A program made the position numbers and the translations under genes. A stretch of 64,000 nucleotides of DNA, from the NCBI RefSeq assembly GCF_008831155.1, contig NZ_WBKB01000005.1, positions 1 to 64,000 of the forward strand, written 5' to 3'. The notes under the pieces were generated by a model, which worked only from the letters and a program-made list of their open reading frames with translations, was not told the origin of the DNA and searched no databases. Positions within the stretch are counted from its first letter, which is position 1. The number at the start of each line of letters is the position of its first letter. Origin of the DNA: Gulosibacter chungangensis. Its GTDB lineage: Bacteria; Actinomycetota; Actinomycetes; Actinomycetales; Microbacteriaceae. Shown piece by piece: positions 25,566-44,919 of the stretch.

Positions 25566-25593
25566 AAATTTATCTTGACATCAAGATAAATTT
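25566..25593. promoter_or_regulatory. Long MarR-type palindrome over the -35 box
   Basis: AAATTTATCTTGA and its exact complement are separated by two bases (28 bp in total). ATCTTGA-N2-TCAAGAT is the kind of operator bound by MarR-family repressors. The centre of the dyad contains TTGACA (25575-25580), which is a perfect -35 for the downstream operon with TGTACT 17 bases further. No MarR gene is in the window. Confidence 0.75.
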
Positions 25594-25597
25594 GGCC

Positions 25598-25630
25598 TGT
25601 ACTGGAATCACTTAGGTAAGGCTTACCTAA
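25598..25630 (+). promoter_or_regulatory. -10 element and exact DtxR/IdeR iron box
   Basis: TGTACT (25598-25603) is the -10 partner of TTGACA at 25575. Right behind it, 25612-25630 matches the DtxR/IdeR consensus TWAGGTWAGSCTWACCTWA at all 19 positions, within a dyad with 11-bp arms (25610-25632). The box would cover the transcription start, so iron-loaded repressor should block the MmgE/PrpD-ComA-YrdC operon. Confidence 0.85.
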
Positions 25631-25655
25631 GTTTGCAATCAGTAGGAGGGCAACC

Positions 25656-26533
25656 GTGAAAACAGAAGTCACCCAGCTCGCCGAATTCGTGGCCAAGGCC
25701 TCGTTCGACGACCTCAGCGCAGAAGCGCTCGAGCAGCTCAAGATCCGCGTTCTCGACACCCTTGGCGTCGCCATCGGCGCAATCGACGCCGAACCGATCG
25801 TCGCAATTCGTGGCCTCGTCGAAGACCTTGGCGGAGCACCCGCAGCCACCCTCATTGGCGGTGGCAAGACCGCGCCCGACCGCGCGGCGTTCTACAACAG
25901 CGCACTGAGTCGCTACCTCGACTTCATGGACTCGTACCTCGCTAAGGGCGAAACGAACCACCCGTCAGACAACTTCGGGGCCGTGCTCGCGGCCGCCGAA
26001 TCGGTCGGCGCATCCGGCAAGGAATTGCTTACCGCATTCGGCGTCGCCTACCAGGTCCACGCACGTCTCTCAGATGTCGCGCCGGTGCGCGCCAAGGGCT
26101 TTGACCACACCACCCAAGGTGCCTATGCTGCAGCCGCCTCGGCGGCGAATTGAACCCCGCGCAGTATGCGCCCGAGCGCATCGTGGCCGATGACGTGCAG
26201 ACGCTGATGAAGAAGATCACCATCGTGCCGTCTGATGAATATTCGGCACGCTTCCCCGACGAGATGCCAGCCTTCCTCGAAGTGGAACTCGCAGACGGCA
26301 AGGTGCTCAGCTCCGAACGCAACTCCTACGAGGGCTTCCACGACGACCCGCTCAGCTGGGAAGGTGCGCGCCGCAAGTTCGACGCGCTCACCACGCCGTT
26401 CGCGGATCTCGACCTGCGCGAGCAGATCGCCGCAATCGTGAACGATCTCGAAAACCGCGACGTCGCCGAACTCACCGAGGTACTCGCCCGCGTGAGTCTC
26501 ACCCGCTGCGAAGTCCAGCCCGCCCTCGCCTAA
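25656..26533 (+). pseudogene. MmgE/PrpD-family gene with internal deletion and frame change
   Basis: The first 165 codons (GTG at 25656, with AGGAGGG before it) match the N-terminal part of MmgE/PrpD proteins (LDTLGVAIGA, ALSRYLDFMDSYLAKG, HPSDNF), then stop at 26153. From about 26150 a second frame resumes with the family's C-terminal part (DVQTLMKKITIV, EVELADGKVL, KFDALTTPFADLDL) to 26533. The family is normally about 450 residues. The middle, about 160-170 residues including part of the active site, is missing, and the two pieces are out of frame. It therefore looks like a deletion pseudogene. Intact members act as 2-methylcitrate or cis-aconitate dehydratase/decarboxylase-like enzymes. 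It is the first gene of the iron-box operon. Confidence 0.82.
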
Positions 26534-26559: not shown

Positions 26560-27396
26560 ATGAGTAACGCAATTCCCTTTGACGTCTCCTGCAACTTCGT
26601 GCCGCGCGCACACCGCCCGGAGAAGCCGCGCACTTTCGGCCTCACCGAAATCCGTGCCCCCTACTACGCCACCTTCGGCACTCGCCACCTGCAGGACGTC
26701 TTCGACGTCGCCGCTCCCTGGGTTGACGGCATTAAGTGGGCCGGTGGCTCCTTCTCACTCGTCCCACCCGAGCAGGTCAAGGCCATGAGCGAGATCGCTC
26801 ACGCAAACGACGCCTATGTCTCCTCGGGCGGCTGGATCGAAACCGTGCTCCGCTACGGTCCGGATGCCGTTGACCACTACCTCAAAGAGGCCAAGGAACT
26901 CGGCTTCGACGTGATCGAAATCTCCACCGGCTTCATTATGCTGCCGACCTCGGGCCTACAGCGACTGGTCGAGCGCGTCGTGAAGGCTGGCCTCAAGGCC
27001 AAGCCGGAGCTGGGCATCCAGATCGGTTCGGGTGGCGACTCGGGTGAGGCCGAACTCGCCGCCGAGACCAAGAAGGACGTTGGCGATCTCATCGACCGCG
27101 GCAAGGCGGCACTCGATGCCGGCGCCTCGATCATCATGATCGAATCCGAAGGCATCACCGAGAACGTGACCGAGTGGAACACCGGCGCCGCCGCATCCAT
27201 CATCAACGGGCTGGGCCTCGAGAACGTCATGTTCGAAGCTGCCGACGGGCCGGTCTTCGAGTGGTACATCAAGAACTACGGCAACGAGGTCAACCTCTTC
27301 GTCGACCACTCGCAAATCCTGCAGCTCGAAGGCTTGCGCCAGAACATCTGGGGCAACAAGTCGACGTGGGGCCGCGTCATCAACCCGGCGTGGTAG
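26560..27396 (+). CDS. ComA-like (phosphosulfolactate synthase family) protein
   Basis: The 278-residue protein matches the ComA/PF02679 TIM-barrel family: a DGIKWAGGSFSLVP strand, VSSGGWIE, GFDVIEISTGFI, and IIMIESEGI with a late NLFVDHSQI. Archaeal ComA adds sulfite to phosphoenolpyruvate in coenzyme M synthesis; bacterial and plant (HSA32) homologues have no settled function. It is intact, has a good AAGGAAA site, and is 26 bases after the broken MmgE/PrpD gene and 11 bases before a YrdC-like gene. The product in this operon is unknown; PEP-dependent C-S or C-C chemistry is an inference from the family. Confidence 0.8.
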   Translation: MSNAIPFDVSCNFVPRAHRPEKPRTFGLTEIRAPYYATFGTRHLQDVFDVAAPWVDGIKWAGGSFSLVPPEQVKAMSEIAHANDAYVSSGGWIETVLRYGPDAVDHYLKEAKELGFDVIEISTGFIMLPTSGLQRLVERVVKAGLKAKPELGIQIGSGGDSGEAELAAETKKDVGDLIDRGKAALDAGASIIMIESEGITENVTEWNTGAAASIINGLGLENVMFEAADGPVFEWYIKNYGNEVNLFVDHSQILQLEGLRQNIWGNKSTWGRVINPAW

Positions 27397-27407
27397 AGGG
27401 CAGTTCA

Positions 27408-28208
27408 TTGACCATCACAGAAGTGACCAACATCAGCTGGAACGGCGGGCTGCAGTATCAAGCACTCGATATTCTGCGCCAGGAAGGTGGGGTCGTCGTC
27501 AGCCCGACCAAGGTTGGCTACATCATCGTCACCACCGACGAGCAGGGGCTGCAGCGAAAATTTGAGCTGAAGAACCGCCCGCTGCGCAAGCCCGGCGTCG
27601 TCCTGTGTGGATCCCTCGAGCAGCTCTTTGAGCTCGCCGAGGTGAACGACGAGATTCGCGAGTTCTACGAGACGCACTGGCGACAGGATGTGCTGATGGG
27701 ATGCATCCTGCCCTGGAAATCGAGCGGGCTGGACTTCATCCCCGAAGGTGCTGAGCCCTATGTTCGGGATGCTCGCGGCACCAGCTGCTTCGTCGTCCGC
27801 TTCGGCACTCCGGCCGAGAAACTCGCGTCTGAGCTCTGGGAAAAGGATCGCTCGCTGCTGTTCGCCAGCTCGGCGAACCCTTCCGGTAAGGGCAACCGCG
27901 GTGTCGTCTCGGGCATCGGCGAACGCATCGCCGGGGGTGTCGACCTTGTCGTTGAGGGGGACGAGTATGTCCGCTCGATTCAACCGGACACGGCCGGTCG
28001 ATACGAGCAAGGCGTGATGGTCTCGTTCGTGGATGCTGAGGGTCGACTCGTGCCTGAACAGCGCGGCGAGGCGCGTCGCGGTGAAGTGGTGGATGCGGGG
28101 GAGGAGTTGCCGACGCTGATTCGTGCTGGCCTCTCGCTGCCGCAGATCCTGCTCAACCTCGCTGAACAGTTCCCCCGCTGGAACTACCGCCACGGTCAGT
28201 ACTACTAG
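27408..28208 (+). CDS. YrdC/Sua5-like domain protein
   Basis: The 266-residue protein shows the YrdC fold signature: a lysine-rich element FELKNRPLRKP and the SSANPSGKGNRG nucleotide-binding loop, preceded by VVVSPTKVGYIIVTT. Canonical Sua5/TsaC makes threonylcarbamoyl-adenylate for tRNA t6A. This paralogue is in a metabolic operon and has an unusual C-terminal part, so a carbamoyl- or acyl-adenylate reaction on another substrate is more likely than the tRNA role. The TTG start at 27408 has GAGGGCAG before it. The operon probably ends at the large hairpin 140 bases downstream. Confidence 0.75.
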   Translation: MTITEVTNISWNGGLQYQALDILRQEGGVVVSPTKVGYIIVTTDEQGLQRKFELKNRPLRKPGVVLCGSLEQLFELAEVNDEIREFYETHWRQDVLMGCILPWKSSGLDFIPEGAEPYVRDARGTSCFVVRFGTPAEKLASELWEKDRSLLFASSANPSGKGNRGVVSGIGERIAGGVDLVVEGDEYVRSIQPDTAGRYEQGVMVSFVDAEGRLVPEQRGEARRGEVVDAGEELPTLIRAGLSLPQILLNLAEQFPRWNYRHGQYY

Positions 28209-43979: not shown

Positions 43980-44873
43980 CTAGATGCTGATTTCGAAGTC
44001 GTCGCTATCGGAGAATTCTTTGCCCGTGGCGAGCGCGTTCTCGGTGGCCTGCAGGCGCGCAATGTCGAGGCGGGTGTTGGAGACACCCTGCTTCCAATAC
44101 CCAAAGACCTGCACACGTTCGGCGGGGAGGAAGAGCACCGAGCGGCAGTGGCGACGCAGCGAGCGCATGTCTTCGCGCTCGCCGGATGCCCACACACTCG
44201 TGTGCAGCGGCACACGCTCGCGCCGGAACGCGGTCGATAGTGGCAGTGGATCATCGCTCGGAATGGCGCGAATGTGCAGTGGTTCGGTCGCGAAGGGTTC
44301 CGCCTCGGCACGGAAAAGCTCGACCTCATCGGTCGGCGCGGCAATAAATACGGTGGTTTCGGTGGCGAAGGGGGTTCGGCGCAGGATACTCAGGGCCGCG
44401 GGCAGTGCCGAAGAATCGGCGAGCAGGATGCGCGGGGCGCCGGGTGCGGGTACACGGTGTGGGCGCGGCCCGAGGATTGGGATCGAGTCGCCGGGCTGGA
44501 CTGTCTCGAGCCATCGCATGGCGGGGGATTCTGCGTTGTGGCGCACGATGTCAATGGCGACCGTGCGGGTTGTCACGTCGATTTCGGCAATCGTATAGGC
44601 GCGGGATGCATTGGCTGGTGCGTTCGCCACACCCTCGAACTCGAGCGGTTGCTCGGGGTAGAAGAGCCGCACGGCAACATTCGGCACTCGCCACGCCTCA
44701 AGCGGATCGCTACCCGAGAGCTTCCCGGTGACTCGCACGAGTGCGTTCGCGCGGTTGATCACGGATTCAATAACAATGTGGCGTTCCTCAAGATCCCGCT
44801 GGTGGTCGGGATGGTTGAGGACCGCGAGTAACCGACGCACAGCGGTCGGCGTGAGGTTGAGTTCCTCGGTCAT
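43980..44873 (-). CDS. Siderophore-interacting protein (ViuB/FAD-binding ferric reductase type)
   Basis: The 297-residue protein shows the family order: a FAD-binding barrel with DIVRHNAESPAMRWLETV and GDSIPILGPRP, then a NAD(P)H-binding part with ILLADSSALPAAL, SVWASGERED, RRHCR and FGYWKQGVSNTR. Such proteins reduce the ferric siderophore inside the cell to release iron. The ATG at 44873 has GGAG before it, and a DtxR/IdeR iron box lies 28-46 bases upstream. It is part of the iron locus with the TetR and ABC exporter genes. There is also a short N-terminal extension with a possible winged-helix look (LTPTAVRRLLAVL). Confidence 0.88.
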   Translation of the reverse strand: MTEELNLTPTAVRRLLAVLNHPDHQRDLEERHIVIESVINRANALVRVTGKLSGSDPLEAWRVPNVAVRLFYPEQPLEFEGVANAPANASRAYTIAEIDVTTRTVAIDIVRHNAESPAMRWLETVQPGDSIPILGPRPHRVPAPGAPRILLADSSALPAALSILRRTPFATETTVFIAAPTDEVELFRAEAEPFATEPLHIRAIPSDDPLPLSTAFRRERVPLHTSVWASGEREDMRSLRRHCRSVLFLPAERVQVFGYWKQGVSNTRLDIARLQATENALATGKEFSDSDDFEISI

Positions 44874-44900: not shown

Positions 44901-44919
44901 TCAGGTAAGGCTAGCCTAA
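44901..44919 (-). promoter_or_regulatory. DtxR/IdeR iron box of the siderophore-interacting gene
   Basis: TCAGGTAAGGCTAGCCTAA matches TWAGGTWAGSCTWACCTWA at 17 of 19 positions, just upstream of the siderophore-interacting protein start. Repression by iron-loaded DtxR/IdeR is expected. Confidence 0.8.

Follow-up and report, generated by a model that had tools for sequence, protein, structure and literature searches.

A probable aconitase-repressor operator and a DtxR-type box upstream of a PrpD-ComA operon: a possible low-iron substitute for aconitase

What would be controlled by a promoter that carries both a MarR-type palindrome and an exact iron box, if the operon behind it encodes a relative of ComA? 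Such a promoter is found in Gulosibacter chungangensis, in the 64,000-nucleotide stretch of contig NZ_WBKB01000005.1 that was analysed as a whole and is here called the window; unless stated otherwise, the features described lie on its plus strand.

The promoter and the genes behind it

The upstream part of the promoter is a 28-bp dyad, AAATTTATCTTGACATCAAGATAAATTT (25566..25593), symmetric at 26 of its 28 positions, whose 18-bp core TATCTTGACATCAAGATA (25571-25588) would be a TamR-type operator lying over the -35 region. The -35-like hexamer TTGACA (25575..25580) is inside the palindrome and is separated by a 17-bp spacer from the -10-like hexamer TGTACT (25598..25603), a weak match to TATAAT. 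The DtxR/IdeR box TTAGGTAAGGCTTACCTAA (25612..25630), a perfect dyad, starts 9 bp past the latter and is followed by a Shine-Dalgarno-like GGAGG (25645..25649). A sequence-only reading had pointed to this combination of dyad, hexamers and exact iron box, and the letters of the window confirm it, far above chance. In fact, TTAGGTAAGGCTTACCTAA is the sole match without mismatches to the iron pattern TTAGGTNAGNCTNACCTAA in the window, where two matches with up to three mismatches are found against 0.02 expected; at the same threshold the 3.24-Mb genome has 13 places, compared with five for the backwards control, and the window box is the only exact one among them. The pattern TATCTTGANNTCAAGATA, describing the palindrome, occurs once in the genome in exact form, and with up to three mismatches its four places hardly exceed the three of the backwards control, so that only exact or near-exact palindrome matches carry weight. 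That count is what could be held in favour of mere look-alikes arising by chance, an explanation that we regard as extremely improbable: the matches at the promoter are exact, even though only 0.02-0.04 would be expected per window at three mismatches, and the conservation of the boxes upstream of the operon greatly exceeds what controls and shuffles give (see below).

A second box, outside the operon, supports a presumed local use of DtxR: the reference iron box recurs with two mismatches at 44901..44919 (plus strand), before a minus-strand gene for a siderophore-interacting protein (about 43980-44873). In the genome, three of the 12 iron-box places other than the promoter (three mismatches at most) are near iron-uptake genes. 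One (L005) is by the gene for a siderophore-interacting protein; at another (L004) a Peripla_BP_2 binding protein of the siderophore type is encoded together with an enterochelin esterase, and at the third (L007) a further member of Peripla_BP_2. No tie to iron uptake was found for the other nine, one of which (L010) is inside a called gene, and some of these non-uptake places look like chance matches. Proteins of the DtxR family are represented in the genome by four PF02742 matches, one of them with internal stops. As separate observations, two overlapping iron-box matches are found at about position 1501 of L002 (G000:C1:439218), between a gene for a luciferase-like monooxygenase and a divergent gene of the HpcH/HpaI aldolase/citrate-lyase type, and another match (L008, G000:C1:254036) precedes a gene for a fumarate-reductase-type flavoprotein, whose divergent neighbour reads, from its translation, like a LysR regulator.

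As for the genes, the operon had been described as ComA-like. The gene in question is present (26560..27396) and encodes a protein of 278 aa (PF02679), a TIM-barrel related to phosphosulfolactate (PSL) synthase; what that description had missed is that the core of the operon is a PrpD-ComA pair and that its first gene, prpD, is broken. An MmgE/PrpD N-terminal fragment of 165 aa (25656..26153, PF03972) is followed in another frame by the C-terminal fragment (26150..26533, PF19305), and the middle of the protein is missing with respect to the intact relatives, whose gene encodes about 457 aa. The window prpD (25656-26533) has lost about 0.5 kb from its interior and changes frame there; at the junction the two aligned parts share an overlap of 12 bases, as happens when the DNA between short repeats is lost. 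Downstream of the pair, a gene for a YrdC/Sua5-like protein of uncertain start (27399..28208, PF01300) is a recurrent, not a constant, neighbour, homologues of which are found near prpD-comA in a minority of loci from several genera (L049, L050, L052, L054 and L073).

The module may therefore be decaying in this genome, though its promoter and comA-like gene look intact. It is quite conceivable, if somewhat short of an even chance, that the promoter is here a relic of a module that no longer works, whatever the copies of relatives do. Two prpD fragments in different frames, without the central part of the protein, are what such a loss would leave. The intactness of the promoter boxes and of the comA-like gene speaks against it, as does the identity of the 19-bp iron box with that of a relative, the [Zimmermannella] faecalis locus (L043/L031), and a contig error is a possible source of the break in prpD. 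Since the gene is broken here, the intact module has to be studied in relatives.

The palindrome and its probable targets

The palindrome was searched for in 25 genomes with up to two mismatches, using the backwards pattern as control. A total of 64 sites were found in 24 of the 25 genomes, from one to five each, while the control gave one match in each of four genomes. The prpD-comA promoters account for 24 of the 64 sites. Behind 21 of the other 40 is the aconitase gene acnA (two of these sites being a tandem before one gene), behind six an isocitrate dehydrogenase gene (four dimeric, two monomeric) and behind five, all in Brevibacterium, a canonical prpD; the rest precede tam, encoding trans-aconitate methyltransferase (two sites), sdh (one) and a MarR gene (one), or have no assignment (four). 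The acnA gene of the window genome itself carries a copy of the palindrome with two mismatches. In an order-wide sample 223 of 396 genomes had the operator, and the rows listed contain no match to the backwards pattern. The 30 order-wide loci listed, which are not a random draw from the 223 genomes, comprise acnA (22), tam (3), prpD-comA (3) and two without assignment, one of which (L256) has a weak SdhA match. An operator of the generic MarR kind, answering to drugs or stress, was considered and rejected: 36 of the 40 other sites, counting the one marR gene, are at citrate or aconitate genes, and 28 of the 30 loci listed order-wide are at acnA, tam or prpD-comA.

The tam gene is a TamR target, as its protein name and the literature indicate. 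Because the same core precedes aconitase and trans-aconitate methyltransferase genes, the palindrome can be named, with fair confidence, a TamR-type operator; the assignment is made through its targets, and the MarR side of the promoter thereby becomes nameable. According to the account given of Streptomyces coelicolor TamR, this MarR protein has aconitase and other cycle genes as targets and is released from DNA on binding citrate or trans-aconitate, whose rise may follow damage to the aconitase cluster (PMC5487221). The MarR gene that carries the operator upstream belongs to Nocardiopsis (L221), and the homologue of its product in the window genome (region G000:C16:274935) shares 47% identity over 173 aa. 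A literature search for the letters of the palindrome gave no match, and one joining aconitase, MarR, actinobacteria, isocitrate dehydrogenase and operator found nothing.

The membership of this predicted TamR-type regulon varies among genera. In the five Brevibacterium loci (L178, L180, L182, L184, L186) the palindrome is located before a gene like that of canonical 2-methylcitrate dehydratase, and a divergent gene of about 200 aa, without assignment, is called in four of the five. Elsewhere (L195, L197, L203, L205, L207, L209, L279) palindromes precede both types of isocitrate dehydrogenase gene and the sdh operon, and in Nocardiopsis (L223, 2060) a copy with two mismatches is beside a gene whose translation resembles 2-isopropylmalate synthase.

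Distribution of the operon and its wiring in other lineages

The ComA-like protein was found in 13 of 398 genomes of the family, twelve of the proteins being 77-100% identical (that of the window included) and one 46%, which makes the operon a sporadic one. Among 84,980 species genomes 134 relatives were found, of which the best 80 were taken further; these include actinobacterial relatives from Brevibacterium, Leucobacter, Corynebacterium, Brachybacterium and Gulosibacter-like organisms and proteobacterial ones from Rhodanobacter, Castellaniella, Bradyrhizobium and Methylosinus. The gene for an MmgE/PrpD protein of divergent sequence is directly upstream of the comA-like gene in 72 of these best 80 of 134. 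A wider conserved neighbourhood was rejected, the genes outside the PrpD-ComA pair differing by clade; in the eight of 80 loci that lack PrpD, a scan of ten neighbours (L109, L106, L094, L107) showed no common alternative partner.

Upstream of prpD, 34 of 73 rows have the palindrome with up to three mismatches, compared with 3 of 1755 control windows, and 23 of 73 have the iron box at the same threshold, compared with 4 of 1755; the control windows are mostly coding DNA, and composition-matched shuffles were used separately. The 73 rows include L115, which is unusable, since the contig ends within its prpD and the row is no promoter. The iron box is downstream of the palindrome in 19 of 35 cases, compared with a mean of 0.003 and a maximum of 1 in the composition-matched shuffles. 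The survey by lineage (54 actinobacterial promoters and 18 proteobacterial rows) used only L043-L122; in the wider set several strains occur under two handles (L031 = L043, L036 = L054, and others; L272 is the Ruania site of L123). An aconitase-repressor operator was found in 38 of the 54 actinobacterial promoters, 33 TamR-type and five AcnR, and a DtxR box (three mismatches at most) in 23. Both together are present in 19 of the 54, belonging to eight genera: Brachybacterium, Brevibacterium, Gulosibacter, Janibacter, Leucobacter, Microbacterium, Nocardia and Nocardiopsis. Four of the 54 have neither element, even if five iron mismatches are allowed, and the 18 proteobacterial rows, unusable L115 included, have neither operator nor DtxR box.

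The recurrence of the promoter before orthologous operons, which had been named as a check, is thus observed: operator and iron box return together, at the strict iron threshold, in these eight genera. The earlier proposal that a MarR-type protein and DtxR/IdeR both repress this promoter is supported by the conservation, with the amendments that the MarR side would be TamR-type and that the operator in Nocardia is that of AcnR. The DNA elements, their conservation and the genes in their company are plain to see; a point against the main reading set out below is that no more than 19 of the 54 promoters have both boxes at the strict threshold. At the 40 palindrome sites not belonging to prpD-comA, no iron box with up to four mismatches was found within about 150 bp. 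A combined pattern did find, in the acnA promoter of L245, a degenerate DtxR-like TTAGGTGAACCTCA after the palindrome, with five mismatches to the 19-mer, and the pairing of palindrome and iron box is accordingly a tendency and not exclusive. As a whole, the regulatory part of an iron-sparing reading is well supported.

In other lineages the operon seems to be connected to other regulators. The motif CAGNACNNNCGTACTG, reported for AcnR as its consensus at the aconitase promoter of corynebacteria (PMC2723105), is found exactly in four Corynebacterium promoters, all of close relatives (L061, L063, L066, L102), and with one mismatch in Nocardia puris (L103), compared with none of 1232 control windows with up to one mismatch. 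It was not found in the other Corynebacterium copies (L052, L059, L073, L108). Among 11 gamma- and betaproteobacterial promoters, two of which (L096, L107) were taken upstream of comA and not of prpD, five reach 15 or more of the 19 positions of a Fur consensus that was widened post hoc, as do 10 of 242 control windows; on the strict consensus, 23 proteobacterial promoters, taken without a control set, scored 9-14 of 19. In the genome of Rhodanobacter thiooxydans, the stricter Fur-like pattern AATGAGAATNATTNTC with up to one mismatch is found at six places (none for the control), namely at three TonB-receptor genes, at one prpD-comA, at one place without assignment and at a sixth whose 16-mer adjoins a gene for a ferritin-domain protein in a related genome. 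Among six proteobacterial genomes, AATGAGAATNATTNTC is on prpD-comA in one and off it in the other five, and in the alphaproteobacterial promoters Fur boxes are not above control. The case for Fur control of proteobacterial copies beyond Rhodanobacter is a weak one.

A possible iron-free route past aconitase

Aconitase is a well-known vulnerable step in cells that lack iron or are oxidised. The reading that we favour, by a narrow measure, is that of a low-iron module behind an AND gate, in which the MmgE/PrpD dehydratase and the ComA-like protein would most likely replace aconitase without iron. The operon had been taken to have no known iron function; as a putative stand-in for aconitase it would have a likely connection with iron after all. 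From the arrangement of the two boxes we infer the binding of two repressors and an AND logic, and the chemistry is likewise inferred. TamR would cover the -35 region and leave the DNA once citrate or aconitate builds up, while DtxR/IdeR would cover the start region and leave at low iron, so that transcription would be admitted when iron is short and the Fe-S enzyme aconitase fails. The PrpD-like enzyme would then convert citrate to cis-aconitate, and the ComA-like enzyme would add water to cis-aconitate to give isocitrate, in a Michael-type addition resembling the addition of sulfite by ComA. The broader proposal of a two-enzyme iron-free aconitase that travels as a mobile module and is wired to the local TamR or AcnR and/or DtxR or Fur in several lineages is advanced more tentatively, as slightly less probable than its opposite.

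An intact PrpD-like homologue (L034) is below the equivalog cut-offs of both NF042438 (136.8 vs 950 bits) and TIGR02330 (102.7 vs 458 bits). The three best PDB matches of the PrpD-like protein are 2-methylcitrate dehydratases, and its KHNAEIHSQ stretch aligns with FPAEFHSQ of PrpD and not with FPAHLATHW of the decarboxylase. Escherichia coli PrpD is described as an enzyme that dehydrates in a single step and does not add the water back; citrate and cis-aconitate are among its substrates, though it is much poorer on citrate than the aconitases (Km 66 mM; PMC9468356).

This evidence also bears on an explanation that keeps the regulators and changes the chemistry: the pair might drain or detoxify the citrate or aconitate piled up on aconitase failure, with no return to isocitrate, for example by decarboxylation, by isomer clean-up or through a secreted citrate-derived chelator. 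The palindrome does also precede the gene for trans-aconitate methyltransferase, a clean-up enzyme, and the MmgE/PrpD superfamily includes cis-aconitate decarboxylase and IDS epimerase, both among the PDB matches. Such a drain is nevertheless judged unlikely, if not negligible, as the dehydratases fill the top three places among the PDB matches, the KHNAEIHSQ stretch pairs with PrpD, the neighbours past the pair depend on the clade, and none of the 20 neighbours scanned is a siderophore gene.

The ComA-like protein is also below the cut-off for its equivalog (TIGR03849, 71.4 vs 280 bits). The best fold match of its model, obtained from 36 sequences (pLDDT 74) after a first model from 13 sequences had been poor (pLDDT 63), is the PSL synthase 1QWG, with an E value of 1.8e-15 and about 20% identity. 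Lys137 of 1QWG, which we take to be the proposed general acid of ComA, aligns with Gln154 of the ComA-like protein, invariant in 36 of 36 homologues. In ComA the acceptor is PEP and the nucleophile sulfite. To our knowledge, there is no precedent for the hydration of aconitate by a ComA homologue, which counts against the main reading, and a literature search on phosphosulfolactate synthase together with MmgE found nothing. In nine Brevibacterium loci a gene is placed divergently from prpD-comA which in L044 (5224-6345), the only one of the nine that was scanned, is a Sulf_transp (YeeE-like) gene; this neighbour, too, weighs against the main reading.

Were the ComA-like protein a true phosphosulfolactate synthase, the operon would belong to sulfonate metabolism and be iron-regulated by coincidence. 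Its PF02679 membership, PSL synthase as the closest fold and the Sulf_transp-type neighbour of the Brevibacterium loci can be cited for this. With a score of 71 bits against a cut-off of 280, an invariant Gln154 in place of Lys137, and a TamR or AcnR control that sulfonate metabolism would leave unexplained, we consider it very improbable.

Returning to the aconitase substitute, the presence of aconitase genes in the genomes where they were met, as in the window genome, stands against it, since the module would then be one aconitase among others. Two reports are consistent with the reading. The expression of aconitase itself is reported to be iron-induced in Corynebacterium diphtheriae (PMC13001254). 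In Brevibacterium aurantiacum, aconitase was down by 1.52 log2 in a co-culture that was taken by its authors to hint at no iron limitation (PMC13198182). We know of no dedicated iron-free replacement of aconitase, and a literature search for such a substitute found nothing relevant. If the reading is correct, the operon would open a way into the citric acid cycle that spares iron, would assign a function to a branch of the ComA fold that lacks one, and would account for a promoter whose AND gate responds to the metal as well as to the failure of the reaction.

Several known systems are comparable. The PrpD of the module is of the same family as that of E. coli and Salmonella, and represents a divergent subfamily whose gene has a comA-like neighbour in 72 of the best 80 of 134 relatives. 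ComA itself (1QWG, 1U83) shares the TIM-barrel fold and PF02679, with about 20% identity and an invariant Gln in the place of Lys137. From the regulatory perspective, the TamR regulon of S. coelicolor is described with the same kind of MarR-type palindrome, with acnA and tam as targets and with citrate and trans-aconitate as plausible ligands (PMC5487221); here one target would be the PrpD-ComA operon, whose promoter has a DtxR box in addition, and the two systems are likened by their targets. The control of aconitase by AcnR, RipA and DtxR in Corynebacterium likewise brings the motif of an aconitase repressor and an iron repressor to bear on one pathway. Corynebacterial acn is reported to be higher in high iron and lower in low iron (PMC13001254, PMC2723105). 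In that system it is aconitase itself that is turned off; the promoter described here would turn on a putative substitute. The same logic of exchanging an iron enzyme is described for the iron-sparing isozyme switches, such as Mn-SOD for Fe-SOD and Mn-RNR for Fe-RNR (PMC12096840), from which the proposed module would differ in using two unrelated enzymes for one Fe-S enzyme and in being gated by the build-up of substrate as well.
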